DNA from: Ignavibacteria bacterium
GTDB taxonomy: Bacteria > Bacteroidota > Ignavibacteria > Kapaibacteriales > UBA961
Length of the DNA stretch: 59,735 nt
Direction: 5' to 3'
NCBI GenBank assembly: GCA_016873735.1
Contig: VGWD01000013.1
Span: 1 to 59,735 of the forward strand
How positions within the stretch are numbered: the stretch's first letter is position 1; each line of letters opens with the position of its first letter. The position numbers and the translations under genes are program-made. Positions 50,809 through 59,735 of this stretch are shown here, one piece after another. The notes beneath the pieces are model-generated. The model saw only the letters and a program-made list of their open reading frames with translations. It had not been told where the DNA came from and did no database searches.

Positions 50809-50884
50809 GGCGGGTGTAGCTCAGTGGTAGAGCAGCGGGTTGTGGCTCCGCTGGCCGCGGGTTCAATCCCCGTCACTCGCCCCA
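50809..50884 (+). tRNA. tRNA-His (anticodon GUG), with G-1 and encoded CCA
   Basis: Extra G at position -1 (50809) pairs with discriminator C (50881), the identity element of tRNA-His. Acceptor stem GCGGGTG/CACTCGC, D arm GCTCAGTGGTAGAGC, anticodon stem GCGGG/TCCGC with loop TTGTGGC (anticodon GTG), T arm GCGGGTTCAATCCCCGT. The 3' CCA is encoded at 50882-50884. Confidence 0.96.
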
Positions 50885-50982: not shown

Positions 50983-53052
50983 TTATTGTACGATCATCAT
51001 GTCAGATATCAAGGGAGGCGGATCGATCACCCTTCCTGTTCCATTCATGAATGCAATGCGAATCATATGTGACTGAAGAATTCGGATTGAAGCTATACTA
51101 ATACCCTGCGGCAAATCTGCTTTTGGAGAGATATGCGCCACCCCTCCCACTTGTACTCCTTGGATGCGAAGATCGCAATATGCGGTACCTCCTGCAGGTT
51201 GCAAGGGAGGACAATCAACATATACATTCTTATGCATGACCAATGAATGTCCCCAAGACATTTGACCCGACGTGGAGGAAATCAACATTTGCGAACTTTG
51301 ATTGGGAGGATTCAATGGTAGTGTATAGCTAATGTTTTGTTGTTGCGTTCCGGCGCGGATCATAGAGTAATGATGTCCCCCGGGATAATGGCCTGTACTA
51401 TTCCCTGGTTCAAAGAAGAAAATACCCCTTGAAAGATTGTCATTGGATGCTAGCCAAATATCCATATTCCCCAATATGTATGTATTTGGAGCATTGATTG
51501 TCATGGGTTTGACAACTGTTCCATTTTGTGCCAATGAACCAATTGAATTTACTGCCAAGTGAGAGAGCGTCAAGCCCGTACCACCGAGTATGATGGACCC
51601 TGCTCCGGCCACAACATTGTTTTTGCCTCCAAGTATCATTCCTTGAGACCCATGAATTGTTGAACCAATGGAACCAATTGCACTCCCGGAATGAGCAGTG
51701 ACATGCGTGAAAGACCCCCCAATTACGGTTGCATCAACAGCACCTGCATAATTGTTTTTTCCTGCAATTGCAGCTGAACTTTCAACTCCTGCCGTATTTG
51801 AAATTCCTAAAGAAACGGTTGAATGACCTACTGCAGTATTCCCATAGCCTCCTGCAGTAAATCCATAGGTTCCGCTTGCCTGATTATTATATCCACCTAC
51901 AATCACTGCACCAGTTCCTTGTGCATCATTGAACATACCTCCGACTACTGATGATTGATCACCCGAGGAAACATTGTTCATACCACCAAGCAATGAAGAA
52001 TAATTTCCGGAGGATACTTGATGCTGTGCATTCCTCGACAATTGAAAATCGACTGCATACATCCCTCTTTTCATACCTCCTGATTCATTATCAGGCAAAG
52101 AACCGAGTAATGAGCCACTACCTTTTGGAGCAAGAATCATGTCAATATCATAGTCATTGCCTTTTGGAGTGAACATATGTGCCGGAATTTGAGCATTCGG
52201 AATAGCAGATGACCTACTTTCTTCAAAATACAGCAATGTGTCAACAGGAATTGAACATGTTACAAGATGATTATGTTCATCTTCAAGAATGCCGAGTTTC
52301 TTTCGAAGTATAATCGAAAGATTCGACTCTTCAATAATCCCATCCTTCAAAACAGGATTTGGAAACTTACCTGTCAAGTCGCCACCGGCTACCCCTTCCG
52401 GTGGCAACGAGACAGGAATTACCCCTGATTGTAATTTTTCTTTTGTTATAGATTGATTCTTCAAATGTTCATTTCCAATAGAGGCTTGTCTAATGGAAAA
52501 TTCATAACCATGAGGACTAGTATTTACTGAGATAAGCGAATCTCCTTGAACAGAAATTGCATTGAAGTCCAGGCCAATTCGAATGGAATCACCGGAGATT
52601 TCTGTAAGCAAGGGTGTTAATGGTGATAAGACCACAGTTCCTGATATTCCATTCATGGACTTAACCATACCTGTGAATGTATCGCTCAATGAATCAGCAA
52701 TTATGGCATGCACAGCTTTGGGAACCATCCCAATCTTAATTCGTGGTGATTGTTCCTTTCCATTGATATCCAATCCCAACCAAAGATCTTTTGAAAAATC
52801 AAGTGATAATGGAGATTCAATTCCTAATATCGCATTGATCAATCCATCTCTGGTGGAAATGAAATGTCTTTCTTGCCATAAAGGGATTGAAGCATCAGGA
52901 TGAGAGTACAGAGAAAACACAATCCATGCACTGTCCGGAGTTTTATTTCCACTTGAATTGTGTAATTGCGCCTGAAATGAAAAGGTGATTGTGGTATCTG
53001 CATATGCTATGGAGAACTGTGAGCATAGTACCAGAATTAATGTCAATTTCAT
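50983..53052 (-). CDS. Modular surface protein with YadA-head-like beta-roll repeats
   Basis: 689 residues from the ATG at 53052, with a signal peptide (LVLCSQFSIAYA). Parts in order: an N-terminal beta domain as in fibre-like proteins (SFQAQLHNSSGNKTPDSAWIV ... PLWQERHFIS ... PKAVHAIIADSL); a linker with GKFPNPVLKDGII; a module with IPNAQIPAHMFTPKG ... PKGSGSLLGSLPDN ... KRGMYAVDFQLSR; about ten 14-16-residue repeats of the SxxxGGxxNxxxG type, the YadA-head left-handed roll; then a module with ISYTLPLNPPNQSSQMLIS; and a C-terminal beta domain (VQVGGVAHISPKADLPQGISIASIRI). It shares these modules with the protein at 57030. Probably a trimeric adhesin-like or appendage protein; no membrane anchor domain is seen. 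Confidence 0.75.
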   Translation of the reverse strand: MKLTLILVLCSQFSIAYADTTITFSFQAQLHNSSGNKTPDSAWIVFSLYSHPDASIPLWQERHFISTRDGLINAILGIESPLSLDFSKDLWLGLDINGKEQSPRIKIGMVPKAVHAIIADSLSDTFTGMVKSMNGISGTVVLSPLTPLLTEISGDSIRIGLDFNAISVQGDSLISVNTSPHGYEFSIRQASIGNEHLKNQSITKEKLQSGVIPVSLPPEGVAGGDLTGKFPNPVLKDGIIEESNLSIILRKKLGILEDEHNHLVTCSIPVDTLLYFEESRSSAIPNAQIPAHMFTPKGNDYDIDMILAPKGSGSLLGSLPDNESGGMKRGMYAVDFQLSRNAQHQVSSGNYSSLLGGMNNVSSGDQSSVVGGMFNDAQGTGAVIVGGYNNQASGTYGFTAGGYGNTAVGHSTVSLGISNTAGVESSAAIAGKNNYAGAVDATVIGGSFTHVTAHSGSAIGSIGSTIHGSQGMILGGKNNVVAGAGSIILGGTGLTLSHLAVNSIGSLAQNGTVVKPMTINAPNTYILGNMDIWLASNDNLSRGIFFFEPGNSTGHYPGGHHYSMIRAGTQQQNISYTLPLNPPNQSSQMLISSTSGQMSWGHSLVMHKNVYVDCPPLQPAGGTAYCDLRIQGVQVGGVAHISPKADLPQGISIASIRILQSHMIRIAFMNGTGRVIDPPPLISDMMIVQ

Positions 53053-53298
53053 GATATCCACCTGATGAATCATAAACAATCTCATTGCATGCAACCTATG
53101 AGATTCAAGGGAATAGAGTATCACTTCAAAATCAATGAAAAAACACTGAAGGTAAAAGAATTGGTTTTTTATGTTCGGATCATTCCGTAATTACGCAAGG
53201 GGAATACGAATGTAATGGGGCATGTATAAAGAGGGCATGCATTGACAATAAAGCCTTAGAAGGAGGCATATTTTATATAATTAATCAGGAGATTCATA

Positions 53299-54057
53299 AT
53301 GATGAATCAACAGAATAATTCAAGCAATAATTCTCAATCAGGAAAGGACGGGAATGAGAATCCAATCATTACAAAACTGAAGAATGAGATTCTTCAATTG
53401 CAGCAAACATTGGAGATAAGGATGGAAGAGAATAAGTATCTACGTATGCAACTCCACAGATTAGATAGAAACAGAAAGATAGGAGATCTTCCATTTATTC
53501 AGAATTTACGACCCGAAACGAGAGAAAGAAGCAGTACATATATTTTTGGATTAAAGGAAACAGATTTTATTCCAAAGCTTCAGCTAAGAAAGCAATTGTT
53601 GAGAAGGCATCCCATGCTATCATCCAATGACATTGATTTCAGCATCATGCTTTCCATAGGATTGACAAACAAAGAAATCATGATTTTATCAGGGAAATCT
53701 CATTCAACAATAGAAAATAATGCAAGCATATTAAAGAGTAAATTATTTGGCGAACATTCGCAGAGAGATCTTAGATCATATCTTTATTCCCTGGAGATAG
53801 ATGCAATAACAGATTCATCTCGCGATTTTTCGATAAATAAGATAATGCGATCTCATGACATCATATTATCTCAGACTGAATGCAAAGTCTGTGGAATGAT
53901 AGTGTTACGAATGCGGAATAAAGACATTTGTGATACATTGATGATATCACCACGAACATTGGAAAGTCACAAATATCGAATAAAGAAAAAATGCAAACTC
54001 ACCCGAAGTGAGTCATTGATTGTCAAACTCCATGAATTGATATCCCCTTATCTCTAA
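53299..54057 (+). CDS. DNA-binding regulator with coiled coil and two LuxR-type HTH domains
   Basis: 252 residues, start preceded by AGGAG. A polar N-terminus leads to a coiled coil (about 22-58, ITKLKNEILQLQQTLEIRM). Two helix-turn-helix domains follow: one at about 107-150 (LTNKEIMILSGKSHSTIENN) and one at about 190-233 (MRNKDICDTLMISPRTLESH), both with the LuxR/GerE pattern of 'xNKEIxxxLxxSxxTxxxH'. Two such domains in one chain without any receiver or ligand domain are unusual. It lies between two minus-strand surface-protein clusters; control of those genes is a reasonable inference. A 10-bp palindrome (CGTAATTACG, 53186-53195) lies upstream. Confidence 0.8.
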   Translation: MMNQQNNSSNNSQSGKDGNENPIITKLKNEILQLQQTLEIRMEENKYLRMQLHRLDRNRKIGDLPFIQNLRPETRERSSTYIFGLKETDFIPKLQLRKQLLRRHPMLSSNDIDFSIMLSIGLTNKEIMILSGKSHSTIENNASILKSKLFGEHSQRDLRSYLYSLEIDAITDSSRDFSINKIMRSHDIILSQTECKVCGMIVLRMRNKDICDTLMISPRTLESHKYRIKKKCKLTRSESLIVKLHELISPYL

Positions 54058-54064
54058 AACACAC

Positions 54065-54096
54065 ATAGGATATGAGATTCATATCCTATTTTTTTT
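54065..54096 (+). terminator. Terminator after the regulator gene
   Basis: TAGGATATGA (54066-54075) pairs with TCATATCCTA (54079-54088), loop GAT, followed by a T run. It overlaps the end of the convergent OmpA-type gene. Confidence 0.85.
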
Positions 54097-56131
54097 CATC
54101 ATCAAGAAATGTATCAACGGTAATGCGCACTGTTCGAGAATAGAAACGTCCTTCAGGCAAGTGCAATGGGAATAGCAGATCATCGAAGCCGCGTCCTTCC
54201 GTCACAATTTTATTTGCCGTGAAATATCGCGATATTTCTTGCGCGCGTCGAAGCGAAAGTGACCTATTATATTGGACTGCTCCGGTTCTATCCGTATGAC
54301 CTGTAAGTGTAAGAATTGAAGTAATGAGAATATTCTTTTTTACATCCTGGATAATGAAATTGTTTGCTTCATCAACAGCTGATGAGTTATATCCAAATGT
54401 AATCAGATTATACTTTTCAACTTTGTTTTTGTTTGCTATGACTTGTTTTACAGGAATCGAGGTTTCCCCGATCACTTTTTCAGAACCATTTTTATCTGTT
54501 GCGACAATTTTAAGCTCAACATTTTCAGCATTCAATAAATCATCTGATATATTCTCGGCAAATGTACGTAATGTATCTTCCATGTACGAATCACCTGTTT
54601 TCAATACTACCGATTGATTTCCGGTTATTGCTCTCAATTCCCATTGTTTGATATTTTCCTTATTCAATCGATCAGTGCTAATACGAATATCATTGGGAAT
54701 TACCCTATAACTAGTATCGATGAATTTCACCGGCAGAAAGATATCCGGATCATTCGATGATATTTCCACTCGCCTATTTTCTTCCTCACCATATCCCGTA
54801 TTTATTCTTGAGGGTTGTTCAGGAAGATTCCTTGCTTCAACATTGACGCGTTCAGGCTTTATATTCCATGTTTTTACCAGATAATCCTTTATGGCTTCAC
54901 CCCTTTTTTTGGACAGAGCCGTATTATTTGCTTCAATTCCATTATTGGAATTGGTTCCTGTGAGATTGATTGTTGCTTCCGGTTTGTTTTGAAGTCTTTG
55001 TCCTAGAATATTCAATACATTATGATAGAGATTAATGGCAGAATCAGTCCTTATGTCTTCAATTGAAAACATTGATCTCTCTTCAGTATTCAACTGTTTA
55101 TATCGCGAAGGAATTTCAGCGGAACTCGAATCAAAGAACACATAATTGATGATTGAAAACATATTTCTCGCAACCTTTTTTTCAATATTGATAACATTTT
55201 CCACGGGACGTCCATTTGTATCATATAATAATGCCTTGATGGGAGACTGAATCAATGAAGTCAGATTCTGTTTCATCTGAACTTGATTGCGATTTGGATT
55301 TGTAATTGTGAGCGTTGGTAGAAGAATCGGATCTTTTGTTTCAAGCGGTATGATCACTGTTTCTTCTTTGGTATATGAAAATACAATTGAAACACCGAAT
55401 CGCATTGTATGAACCTGCCATGTTTCATTCGAAGTCAAAAGATCGGTTATTGGAAATTCATAAGCAATTTCAGGGATCAGTTGTGTCGTATTACTTGCAT
55501 TCAAAGGCAATGCATATTTTGCGTGTATCACTATTCCACCTTCTATGACCGACATTTCGGGTATTGTCCCACTATCCTCATTTCTTATTCGAGCTTGATT
55601 ATCCGTAAATACAGCATTACTTGGTATTTCCAATTTCTCATACTGATCAAAACTTGTTGACAGTATTCCACCAAATCGCAGTCCACCACCAATCGAAAAT
55701 GCGTCATCGACTCTATAATTTGCAAGAAATGACAGACCTAGAGAATAGATGTAGGTTGATAGATTGTATCCTATTCTTGCGAGTGTAAATGCCGGATTTT
55801 TAGTAGGATCATCGATGAGTATTTCTTCTGCTTCGTAAAATGTTCCCGGTATTCCCTTGAAATCCAATCGGGATTGCAATGATAAAGGCATGGTTTCATA
55901 ATCATATGTAAAATCCAAGCCGAGTGAACCGAGAAATCCTTCTGAATTAGAATATACAGGGCCGCAGGACGGCACTCCGGGTAAAGCAGAAAAATCCACA
56001 TGATGTCGATATAATGAAGGGAATACACTAAACCCCGCCTTCCATAGCACTTGTTGTCTTACGACTGTCGTATCAGCCGCGAACATAGTCGTGGTAAAAA
56101 GAAAAATGAGCAGTGAGCACAGCACATTCAT
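54086..56131 (-). CDS. OmpA-family outer-membrane protein with two OmpA C-terminal domains
   Basis: 681 residues from the ATG at 56131 that overlaps the previous stop (ATGA). Signal peptide (LLIFLFTTTMFAA), a barrel-like N-terminal part (SRLDFKGIPGTFYEAEEI, SFLANYRVDDAFSIGGGLRFGG), then two OmpA/MotB peptidoglycan-binding domains. The first (about 325-450) has NYVFFDSSSAEIPSRY and ANNTALSKKRGEAIKDYL; the second (about 575-681) has LITFGYNSSAVDEAN, LTGHTDRTGAVQYNRSLSLRRAQEIS. It probably ties the outer membrane or an attached surface structure to the cell wall. It is the last gene of a three-gene operon. Confidence 0.88.
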   Translation of the reverse strand: MNVLCSLLIFLFTTTMFAADTTVVRQQVLWKAGFSVFPSLYRHHVDFSALPGVPSCGPVYSNSEGFLGSLGLDFTYDYETMPLSLQSRLDFKGIPGTFYEAEEILIDDPTKNPAFTLARIGYNLSTYIYSLGLSFLANYRVDDAFSIGGGLRFGGILSTSFDQYEKLEIPSNAVFTDNQARIRNEDSGTIPEMSVIEGGIVIHAKYALPLNASNTTQLIPEIAYEFPITDLLTSNETWQVHTMRFGVSIVFSYTKEETVIIPLETKDPILLPTLTITNPNRNQVQMKQNLTSLIQSPIKALLYDTNGRPVENVINIEKKVARNMFSIINYVFFDSSSAEIPSRYKQLNTEERSMFSIEDIRTDSAINLYHNVLNILGQRLQNKPEATINLTGTNSNNGIEANNTALSKKRGEAIKDYLVKTWNIKPERVNVEARNLPEQPSRINTGYGEEENRRVEISSNDPDIFLPVKFIDTSYRVIPNDIRISTDRLNKENIKQWELRAITGNQSVVLKTGDSYMEDTLRTFAENISDDLLNAENVELKIVATDKNGSEKVIGETSIPVKQVIANKNKVEKYNLITFGYNSSAVDEANNFIIQDVKKNILITSILTLTGHTDRTGAVQYNRSLSLRRAQEISRYFTANKIVTEGRGFDDLLFPLHLPEGRFYSRTVRITVDTFLDDEKK

Positions 56132-57033
56132 TTTGCTATGACACAAGGAGTGGTGAGAAGATCGCTTGGTGTTTTCATAATGATAAAGTATGTACCGGAT
56201 GGTATAAATTCGGTATCTATCTTAAGTTCATGATAACCGGGCTTCAATGTTCCTTCGTGAAGGGATCCAATCAATTTTCCATCTGGTGCATACATGAGAA
56301 TTTCCGTTGCACCTTGCTCGACAATACTTGTAGCAACGGTAAGCAAACCTTTTGCAGGTAATGGAAATGCCGATAAGGCCAATCCCTGTTTTAATGTGCT
56401 TATGAGACGTGGTTTACCATCTATAAAACACAAGTCTTCCAATTGAAATTGACCATTTTTCTTGATGATTATAGCATTCGGGTGTTCTTTGACAGCAAAT
56501 GAATCCCATGTTACAGCTGAAATTGCTTCATTCCCAAGCTTGACTCTGAATGTTATTTTTTTAATGATACCAGCCGTATCAGTACTTGTACCTGAAAAGC
56601 GAATGGTACCTATATCATTGACTCTTGTAAATGAATCATGACCACCCATTGGTTCTAGTACTGTGGCATTATATGTAAATGAACCGGTAAATGACCAAAG
56701 TGTCCCGAATGGTAGTTTTTGTGATGACTCAATGATGATGGGCATTTCTACAGTTTGACCTGCTTTACCGCTGAATACAGGCAATACTACGATAATGCCT
56801 ACATTATTTTTCGGCAGTGAAGAACGCATAGTGTACCAAAATCCACTTCGCACTTCACCTGATTTTTCAAAACTTCTACCTATTGCTGTTTGGCTAAGAG
56901 TTCCATGAATTACAGAACTTCCGCTGTTAGCAGTCGTGCCACCTGCTCCCCAAACACCACGCATGGTTTTTTGGGCATTGACATCCAGACTCATGAACAT
57001 GAGCAAGATTGATATATACAACATCAATTTCAT
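56128..57033 (-). CDS. Secreted cohesin-like protein with C-terminal T9SS-like sorting domain
   Basis: 301 residues with signal peptide (LYISILLMFMSLDVNAQ). A segment with MRGVWGAGGTTANSGSSVIHGTLSQTAIG precedes a cohesin-like beta domain (about 78-190: VVLPVFSGKAGQTVEMPIII, SFTGSFTYNATVLEP, ITFRVKLGN). The C-terminal 80 residues (ALSAFPLPAKGLLTVATSI ... YAPDGKLIGSLHEGTLKPGYHELKI ... IPSGTYFIIM) have the layout of a type IX sorting domain. It overlaps both neighbours by ATGA. Family resemblance, not experiment, supports both domains. Confidence 0.78.
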   Translation of the reverse strand: MKLMLYISILLMFMSLDVNAQKTMRGVWGAGGTTANSGSSVIHGTLSQTAIGRSFEKSGEVRSGFWYTMRSSLPKNNVGIIVVLPVFSGKAGQTVEMPIIIESSQKLPFGTLWSFTGSFTYNATVLEPMGGHDSFTRVNDIGTIRFSGTSTDTAGIIKKITFRVKLGNEAISAVTWDSFAVKEHPNAIIIKKNGQFQLEDLCFIDGKPRLISTLKQGLALSAFPLPAKGLLTVATSIVEQGATEILMYAPDGKLIGSLHEGTLKPGYHELKIDTEFIPSGTYFIIMKTPSDLLTTPCVIAK

Positions 57034-59735
57034 GGCTGAATGACTGTGATATCTACATTCACTGCAGCTGGATTTATTGGGCCATTTGTAGTATTGACAA
57101 AACGGACCGAAACTGTATCTGCTGCCGTCACTCTGGCATAGCCGATAATTATGCCGGCTTCCATTTCTTCTTGTGGTGAAACTTGAACAGTACCTCCAAC
57201 CTGAGCGCCTGTAACGGTGATTACAATTGATTCCGAACCACCATATTCTACAAGATTACCGGGATTAACATTGATGTTATGTGCTTTTACAATTGGAGTA
57301 TTCCAAGACATGATACCATTTGTATTAGAAACCATGAATTGACCATCAGCAGTTGGCGCAGAAGTTGGCAATGTATATATCATGTCTGCAGTGGCATTTC
57401 CCGATTTGAATCCGACATAATTGCTACCGGTACCGGATGCCTCGTGGATGCGAAGTTCACTTGTTGTGGCACCACCACCGATGGATACATTACTGTTAAC
57501 AGCAAGTGTTCCGGAGACATTCGTATTTCCATTTTTCATAATTGAAAATGCAGTTGATCTCACTGCTGAAGTACCATTACCAATAGCGAATAGTCGATCG
57601 GTAGAAACTGCTGAGGATGTCGTTCCTCCTGCATCAGTAGCATATATACCAAAAACAGTTTCGCCAAATGAACCAGCGGTATTTCCAAGCCCACCAACAA
57701 GTGAATATTGTCCTGCAGCTGTATTAGACCTACCGGCCAATACTGTGGATTGATAAGCTGATGCGGTATTTAATGCACCGCCAATAATCACTGAAGTGTG
57801 TGCATTGTTTGCTATCTCATTAGCGAAACCACCGGAGATCACAGATGTATCGGATCGAACAATTTGTTGTTGCGTATTCCGAATAAGTTGAAGATCAACC
57901 GAATGAATCCCTCGCTTTGCTCCACCTGTTGCTGCATTATCAGGATAATCCAACATGAAAGAACCTTTGCCTTTGGGATTAGCTACAAAATCTATGTCAT
58001 CTTCCGGACCAAGAGGCCTTACCAAATGTGCTTGAATTGAACTTTGACCACCGGGATTCAAATCATTGAATTCGAAATAATCATTCACATTTCCACCTGC
58101 ATTAACCCATGACAATATCCCGGCTGTGGTAGAAGAAAGTACTTGTCCACTGGAAGCAGGAGCAGCGGAAGGCAAGGTGTATGTTACATCAGTCGCAATT
58201 GAATTTGGTGCTTTGAAAGCAACATAGTTTGTACCATTGGGGAATGCACCAACAGTATTGTATTTTTCATAAAATCTCAATGTTCTCACTGTATCATCAT
58301 TATTGGTTAACCACAAATGAACATTATTGAATACACCGGTTCTTGGTTGAGATATATTTATTCTCCTTGCATATAAACTTGTTGAATTGTCTATGATATT
58401 TCCATTAAATCCAAATGAATTGGATGCAGTTGTTTCAAGAACCATTTCAACACCACCTATTACGGCACTTCCTTCACCTAATGCAGAATTTAATGCGCCA
58501 CCGGATACGGTTGAATACCAGTTATTTGCTTTGTTTAAAATACCCCCGCTAATTGTAGAGCGCTTGCCCAATGCTTGATTTCCTGCGCCACCTCCTACTA
58601 CAGCTGTGGAGTCAGAAACCATATTCGAGAGTCCACCTCCAATAAATCCTCCATAACCTTGGGCTATGATAATATTTTCAAATCCACCAGATATTGTCGC
58701 ATAATTAGCATAAACAGTATCTTTATATCCACCACCAATAAAGGAATAAGATAGATTTATAAAGTTATGTACACCTCCACCCAACATAGATCCAAATCCA
58801 TAATTATGATTCTTCCATCCACCAACAACAACACCATAATTACCAGTTACTTTATTTTGACGACCACTTCCGATCATAGCATACTCATTAGTCACAGCAT
58901 TTTGTAAGCCACCAACTATTAATGAATAATCACCTGAAATCGTATTGTAATAACCAGAGCCTATAAAGTTGAATTTATTTCCAGCACTATTTCCTTGTCC
59001 ACCAACAACTACAGAATATTCATCATAGGTTGTATCATTACTACCTCCTCCAATAAAACTGTATGAACCGGATGTATAGTTATAATAACCACCAGAAATG
59101 GCAGAGAACATATTTGTAATTGTATTATTTGATCCACCAGATATAACTGAGGAATTACCGGAAACTCCTATTCTATTTGATTGTCCTCCACTTATCACAC
59201 TATAGTCTCCCTTTGCAACTTGATTAGCCTGAGTTCTATTTAATTGTAAGTCAATCACTTTTAAACCTCGTTTTTCATTTGTGCTATTAGATGGAATATT
59301 AGTCAAGATAGAACCACTACCTTTAGGAGATAATATGAAATCTATACTGCCTTCATCACCAAATGGTGTTATGCTGTGTGCTGGTATTACAGTATTAGGA
59401 ATAGATGATGTTCTTGCTGTTTCAAAATAGTCTATCCCTGAATTCGATGGCGCCCATGTCGTGCCATTCCACTTCAGGATCTGATCCGTCGTTGCTCCCA
59501 TCTGATTCAATTTGGCTGCTGTCACTGCACCATCTGCAAGTTTAGCCGATGTCACTGCACCATTCTTGATCGTTATCGAGTTATATGTACCCGATACATC
59601 ACCATTGAATTGCGTTGACTTCAATACATCATCCGTTGAATCTTGATCACCGGTATTGATGATTGAATCATTCGAGATGGCTATACCAAGTCCTGCCTTA
59701 TACACTTTACCTGAATCAAGTGCTGGAGCCCATGT
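57030..59735 (-). CDS. Long modular YadA-head-like beta-roll surface protein (5' end outside window)
   Basis: The frame is open to the right edge (902 residues visible). Parts: a linker unit GATTDQILKWNGTTWAPSNSG with a second TWAP at the edge, suggesting more copies upstream; module A (YFETARTSSIPN ... PKGSGSILTNIP ... KRGLKVIDLQLNR); about 17 roll repeats such as SFIGGGSNDTTYDEY and SLIVGGLQNAVTNEY; a NYVAFKAPNS ... YTLPSAAPASSGQVLSS unit; a second module A (YFEFNDLNPGG ... PKGKGSFMLDYP); about five further roll repeats; a second YTLP unit; and the C-terminal beta domain (GAQVGGTVQVSPQEEMEAGIIIGYARV). It opens a three-gene operon with the cohesin-like and OmpA-type genes. Confidence 0.8.
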   Translation of the reverse strand, partial: TWAPALDSGKVYKAGLGIAISNDSIINTGDQDSTDDVLKSTQFNGDVSGTYNSITIKNGAVTSAKLADGAVTAAKLNQMGATTDQILKWNGTTWAPSNSGIDYFETARTSSIPNTVIPAHSITPFGDEGSIDFILSPKGSGSILTNIPSNSTNEKRGLKVIDLQLNRTQANQVAKGDYSVISGGQSNRIGVSGNSSVISGGSNNTITNMFSAISGGYYNYTSGSYSFIGGGSNDTTYDEYSVVVGGQGNSAGNKFNFIGSGYYNTISGDYSLIVGGLQNAVTNEYAMIGSGRQNKVTGNYGVVVGGWKNHNYGFGSMLGGGVHNFINLSYSFIGGGYKDTVYANYATISGGFENIIIAQGYGGFIGGGLSNMVSDSTAVVGGGAGNQALGKRSTISGGILNKANNWYSTVSGGALNSALGEGSAVIGGVEMVLETTASNSFGFNGNIIDNSTSLYARRINISQPRTGVFNNVHLWLTNNDDTVRTLRFYEKYNTVGAFPNGTNYVAFKAPNSIATDVTYTLPSAAPASSGQVLSSTTAGILSWVNAGGNVNDYFEFNDLNPGGQSSIQAHLVRPLGPEDDIDFVANPKGKGSFMLDYPDNAATGGAKRGIHSVDLQLIRNTQQQIVRSDTSVISGGFANEIANNAHTSVIIGGALNTASAYQSTVLAGRSNTAAGQYSLVGGLGNTAGSFGETVFGIYATDAGGTTSSAVSTDRLFAIGNGTSAVRSTAFSIMKNGNTNVSGTLAVNSNVSIGGGATTSELRIHEASGTGSNYVGFKSGNATADMIYTLPTSAPTADGQFMVSNTNGIMSWNTPIVKAHNINVNPGNLVEYGGSESIVITVTGAQVGGTVQVSPQEEMEAGIIIGYARVTAADTVSVRFVNTTNGPINPAAVNVDITVIQP

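Follow-up and report, generated by a model that had tools for sequence, protein, structure and literature searches.

Two large proteins built around YadA-like head repeats, encoded beside a cohesin-like protein, an OmpA-type protein and a regulator, raise the question of whether this locus specifies a surface fibre with an anchor of its own or a relic of phage tail fibres. The locus closes the window (the whole stretch of DNA analysed, 59,735 nucleotides, from contig C13 of a host genome of 2.26 Mb in 61 contigs). Along the direction of transcription it comprises roll/fibre protein 1, the cohesin-like protein and the barrel-OmpA protein, followed by a LuxR-type regulator on the opposite strand and by roll/fibre protein 2 (Table 1). 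The overlap of the first three genes by ATGA, proposed in the initial annotation, is present at both junctions, that is at the fibre 1 stop and cohesin-like start (57033-57030) and at the cohesin-like stop and OmpA start (56131-56128). The OmpA protein therefore starts at the ATG at 56131, and a longer TTG start was dropped in its favour. The two roll proteins had been annotated as one set; they do share modules, but fibre 2 forms a transcription unit apart from fibre 1. Within the genus, the block of fibre 1, cohesin-like, OmpA, regulator and fibre 2 genes is found in G000; G001, G002 and G004 show it too, within the limits set by their contig ends. Directly downstream of fibre gene 2 lies a tRNA-His gene (50810-50884), within a mechanically called 141-aa open reading frame.

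Table 1. Genes and domains of the locus, in window coordinates.
Feature	Position	Strand	Remarks
Roll/fibre protein 1	57030..59735	-	901 aa within window, gene cut by the contig end; candidate for the missing 5' part on contig C53 (L013)
Fibre 1 module copy A (PKGSGS..KRG)	59220..59432	-	
Fibre 1 roll run A	58440..59219	-	YadA/UspA1-head type, ~15-residue repeats
Fibre 1 YTLP..GQ unit A	58101..58328	-	
Fibre 1 module copy B	57864..58082	-	
Fibre 1 roll run B (short)	57636..57863	-	
Fibre 1 YTLP..GQ unit B	57291..57458	-	
Fibre 1 C-terminal beta cap domain	57033..57284	-	ends ITVIQP
Cohesin-like protein with T9SS tail	56128..57033	-	301 aa; ATGA overlap with fibre 1
Cohesin-fold domain, residues 78-201	56431..56802	-	Z 11-12 to cohesins
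T9SS type A-like C-terminal tail, residues 214-301	56131..56394	-	
Outer-membrane barrel with two OmpA-type domains	54086..56131	-	ATGA overlap with cohesin-like gene
OmpA-type domain 1	54761..55027	-	ligand-binding Asp lost
OmpA-type domain 2	54116..54418	-	Asp and Arg kept; canonical peptidoglycan binder
LuxR-type regulator	53299..54057	+	252 aa; C-terminal HTH clear, first HTH degenerate; optional companion
Roll/fibre protein 2	50983..53052	-	separate transcription unit, divergent from regulator; signal-peptide-like start, N-domain, module, rolls, YTLP unit, cap

Both large proteins are assembled from the same four modules, as first annotated. Two cassette copies are present in the 901-aa open protein, where the AH..PKGSGS/PKGKGS..KRG module starts near residues 102 and 552 and YTLP falls at residues 519 and 787; in the 691-aa protein the module starts near residue 276 and YTLP falls at residue 578. 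Module, rolls, YTLP unit and C-terminal domain align between fibre 1 and fibre 2 in BLASTP (E 3e-34), and the roll periodicity stands far above shuffled sequences, with 16 of 28 motif spacings at 13-17 residues in fibre 1 (shuffled mean 0.5, maximum 4) and 5 of 11 in fibre 2 (shuffled mean 0.24, maximum 3). The 'AH' of the module is present in both proteins but is not kept outside the genus, most relatives carrying PVH or PVV in its place. Among solved structures the rolls match the UspA1 head (3pr7; phmmer 3e-16, profile E 1e-33), in line with their description as YadA-head-like.

In fibre 2 an N-domain of ~100 residues follows the signal-peptide-like start. Fibre 1 begins beyond the window, as had been noted, the contig stopping at 59735; a candidate for its N-terminus, with signal-peptide-like start, N-domain and the same GQILKWNGTTWAP repeat, is found on C53 (3.3 kb). 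The GQILKWNGTTWAP-type tandem repeat is common to the ends of C53 and C13, which then diverge; it probably broke the assembly, and the contigs were left separate. Just upstream of the candidate 5' end, C53 (1-1812) encodes a sortilin/VPS10-type beta-propeller protein. A C-terminal YadA anchor barrel has no match in either fibre protein or elsewhere in the genome, and a type Vc (trimeric autotransporter) anchor was rejected, as the genome has none. Neither window fibre matches a Peptidase_S74 domain or carries a recognised T9SS sorting tail. Modelled as a monomer, fibre 2 gave a weak prediction, with a mean pLDDT of 62. A fold search of the fibre monomer returned only beta-helix tailspikes; these hits were unspecific (Z about 10-11), of low identity and in many cases of high rmsd, and were for these reasons dropped as evidence for handedness or trimerisation.

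The suspicion that these modules are merely tail-fibre parts proved half right. In a phage collection the module and rolls have one match, the tail fibre g10 of Cyanophage Cy-LDV1, and a scan of viral contigs with the module alignment returned 286 viral stretches; whole fibre protein 2 as a query against the same contigs found nothing, its patterns being too specific. In 80 viral loci inspected, the module is present in 80, rolls in 79 and the YTLP unit in 4, and the tested neighbours of the viral module genes include tail and tape-measure proteins. The N-domain, the cap, and the cohesin and OmpA partners occur in none of the 80. Beyond Kapaibacteria, the module is found in Bacteroidales MAGs, one Verrucomicrobia MAG and a few proteobacterial genomes, all without the partners. 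Since module and rolls recur in phages and in other bacteria without these partners, they are, as far as sequence tells, a shared fibre part of phages and bacteria. That the whole cluster is a remnant of a phage or tail-like particle, its roll proteins being tail fibres, would fit the module and rolls of the cyanophage protein and of viral loci, some of them beside tail genes; we nevertheless regard it as highly improbable. Phage tail fibres lack the N-domain, cap and partner genes and are encoded among tail genes, whereas the cluster has signal-peptide-like starts and T9SS partners, and its genes are of T9SS, OmpA and LuxR type, as in relatives. The cluster contains no recognised capsid or tail gene, and no phage structural family matched the window fibre proteins. 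A phage origin of the whole cluster was rejected on the 80 viral loci, and the gene linkage is conserved as described below.

The protein encoded between fibre and barrel had been called cohesin-like with a T9SS tail, and both parts of this description are upheld. Its predicted structure (mean pLDDT 68 overall, mostly 70-90 within the cohesin domain) supports the fold, with Z about 12, while the Pfam cohesin match reaches 21.6 bits, below cut-off. Por_Secre_tail scores 22.2 bits against a cut-off of 27, and the type A tail model TIGR04183 matches 7 of 10 members of the family, the window copy itself not among them. The genome encodes T9SS machinery, comprising SprA and a PorU-type sortase (a clear one on C16), and yields 75 tail matches. 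A second, partial PorU-sortase-like match lies at G000:C7:32522-36274, in a 1769-aa frame and under the family's cut-off. Likeness to cellulosomal cohesins is confined to the predicted fold; they differ from the single-domain, T9SS-tailed protein described here, whose genome has no Dockerin_1 match, and dockerin-based assembly was accordingly rejected.

The third protein had been described as having two wall-binding domains. Two OmpA-type domains are indeed present, but the ligand-binding Asp of domain 1 is replaced by Ser or Ala in 18/18 fibre-linked proteins, whereas domain 2 keeps Asp and Arg in 43/43 proteins. In OmpA, as in that of Acinetobacter, these two residues form the pair that binds diaminopimelate. 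Wall binding is thus probably the work of the second domain only, and a grip on the wall by both was dropped, the Asp being missing from domain 1. In relatives, the N-terminal region weakly matches the outer-membrane barrel family OMP_b-brl_2. Near the N-terminus the window protein (55900-56131) and its relatives carry a conserved LPGxPSCCP-like motif with one invariant Cys. The double-OmpA barrel family is large, with 5-27 matches per genome in every sampled genome of the order, and one branch of a 43-protein tree separates the 18 fibre-linked copies, which come from three families, from all the others (support 88/94, bootstrap/SH-aLRT, below the tool's star threshold). The fibre-linked label changes once on this tree, against 13.9 times on average after shuffling and with 0/500 shuffles as low, a contrast inflated by near copies among the paralogues, which were chosen as best matches to the window protein.

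The linkage of the three genes was followed in 61 genomes (the own genome and 60 relatives), which hold 22 stand-alone homologues of the cohesin-like protein. In 21/21 evaluable loci an OmpA-family gene lies directly downstream on the same strand (two of these copies are fragments), and in 21/21 a fibre-type protein lies directly upstream; one locus per side is lost to a contig end. The co-occurrence check called for at the outset thus finds the linkage kept across three families (f1, f2 and f4). Most of the upstream fibres have rolls, some in f2 being recognised by N-domain or cap alone, and they reach thousands of residues (3,092 aa, 3,762 aa and one 4,489-aa frame). Among the matches listed from 395 genomes of the phylum (at most five candidates each), full-length stand-alone cohesin-like proteins occur in the same order only, with tail or fused forms alone outside it. 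Operon fibres of f4 (L047, L048, L049 and L054) end in S74 followed by a coiled coil and then a T9SS tail, the S74 scoring 22.2 and 22.6 bits. These resemble S74 intramolecular-chaperone fibres of the endosialidase type, with the differences that the relatives add a T9SS tail after S74 and that the window has a beta cap in its stead. Should S74 cleave itself off here as it does in endosialidases, it would take the T9SS tail with it and free the f4 fibre from its export signal after trimerisation.

The cohesin-plus-tail module is also found as the C-terminus of giant surface proteins encoded immediately upstream of OmpA paralogues, at no fewer than 11 other loci (L057, L058, L183, L184, L186, L189, L192-L195 and L201); those scanned carry WD40 and HYDIN-type Ig domains. 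In the own genome, another OmpA paralogue follows a lectin/PKD/SprB-repeat protein whose T9SS tail is weak (L200). Fusion of the cohesin module beside an OmpA paralogue suggests a physical partnership, and the fibre operon looks like the case in which the connector has a gene to itself, perhaps because assembly of the fibre depends on a C-terminus of its own. Many OmpA paralogues across the order lie directly beside a giant T9SS surface protein (e.g. L057, L183 and L200), a possible general pairing of cargo and anchor.

These neighbourhoods bear on two other readings of the operon. The barrel-OmpA protein could mainly be an export shuttle dedicated to the cargo encoded beside it, in the way that PorP/SprF serves type B cargo, with wall anchoring secondary; an OmpA paralogue beside many different T9SS giants would suit such a role, and F. 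johnsoniae offers known examples of shuttles dedicated to their cargo (PMC12618676). We consider this unlikely, as type A tails such as the connector's use PorV (PMC12618676), the barrel region has no match to PorP/SprF models, and the conserved wall-binding pair favours anchoring. According to the other reading, a fibre adhesin, a separate cohesin-fold T9SS protein and a general envelope-stabilising OmpA protein are surface components under common regulation that at no point bind to each other. Consistent with it, a complex of the three is a prediction, the cohesin-fold and OmpA families are common, and the genome lacks dockerin; yet co-regulation alone hardly explains the strict gene order, the grouping of the OmpA copies and the fusion of the connector, and we think it quite unlikely.

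The regulator fits the locus less tightly. Of the two LuxR-type HTH domains annotated, the C-terminal one is clear (GerE 2e-9), but the first is degenerate, its profile aligning to the protein's second half at E 1e-4. A 721-aa relative in G001 (L040, 4756-6918) carries a long extension at its N-terminus as well as two GerE stretches, and the 252-aa window protein looks like a shortened form. Relatives adjoin the locus in most members of the genus, and LuxR-domain proteins stand behind three operons of the distant relative G025 (L047, L048 and L175), but the regulator is not seen beside most other fibre loci. It is not a consistent member of the set and is treated here as an optional companion of the operon.

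We therefore lean, somewhat beyond even, towards a surface-fibre operon that would encode a connector exported by the T9SS and a dedicated anchor to outer membrane and peptidoglycan. Read directly from sequence are the architecture, the conserved order of the genes, the grouping of the fibre-linked OmpA proteins, the connector module fused to other surface giants and the T9SS core genes of the genome. Fibre and connector would cross the inner membrane by Sec. The roll protein, of modules shared with phage tail fibres, would fold into a beta-roll fibre, probably homotrimeric, whose assembly is probably set by the C-terminal cap, replaced in some relatives by an S74 chaperone and a T9SS tail. 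The cohesin-like protein would pass through the type IX secretion system and act as a connector; the fibre would assemble at the surface and be retained there by this connector and by the barrel in the outer membrane, and the second OmpA domain of the barrel protein would fasten the whole to peptidoglycan. Attachment or aggregation is the likely use. The adhesin interpretation put forward initially thus keeps the rolls, cohesin fold, T9SS tail, OmpA domain and a linkage extending well beyond the genus, but loses a consistent regulator and probably one wall-binding domain. Several points count against the surface-fibre operon, among them the weak monomer model of fibre 2 and the tree support under the star threshold. 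The weakest step of the proposed mechanism is the crossing of the outer membrane, which is left unexplained for window fibres that have neither a T9SS tail nor a YadA anchor; the known shuttle for the connector's type A tail is PorV rather than a dedicated barrel; and a cohesin fold in a genome without dockerin leaves the binding mode unaccounted for.

Two known systems come close. In Acinetobacter, the peptidoglycan-associated helper TpgA reinforces the trimeric autotransporter adhesin AtaA (PMC13082670), so that both there and here a long fibre with YadA-type head repeats has an OmpA-domain partner that reinforces, or here would reinforce, its anchoring. The present operon, in another phylum, differs in having no YadA anchor, an OmpA partner with a barrel region of its own, and an additional T9SS-exported cohesin-fold protein. 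The PorE-PorP complex holds T9SS cargo (PMC9143113), and with the PorP/SprF-PorE systems the operon shares an outer-membrane barrel and OmpA-type wall binding, often as a dedicated gene beside the T9SS cargo (PMC9143113, PMC12618676). Here, in contrast, barrel and wall-binding part are one protein, the barrel is not recognised as PorP, the tail is type A instead of type B, and the cargo is a stand-alone connector beside the fibre. By analogy, the best reading is that the operon would work like AtaA-TpgA or PorP-PorE while belonging to neither. No description of the fibre, cohesin-like and OmpA combination was found in the literature searched, in which subscription journals are thinly covered, and this conserved operon type, made of known parts, is apparently undescribed.

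More tentatively, at a little under even, we propose a non-autotransporter route to YadA-type fibres, in which a surface-assembled trimer of tail-fibre type is combined with a T9SS-exported cohesin-fold connector and a barrel-OmpA anchor, within a wider rule that every T9SS surface giant of the order is paired with an anchor paralogue of its own. Who binds whom follows as a direct, testable prediction from the cohesin module in its fused and unfused states. If true, display of fibres of YadA or tail-fibre type would not require a type V autotransporter barrel, and the multi-copy OmpA anchor family would be a general way to hold T9SS surface proteins outside the well-studied Bacteroidota.
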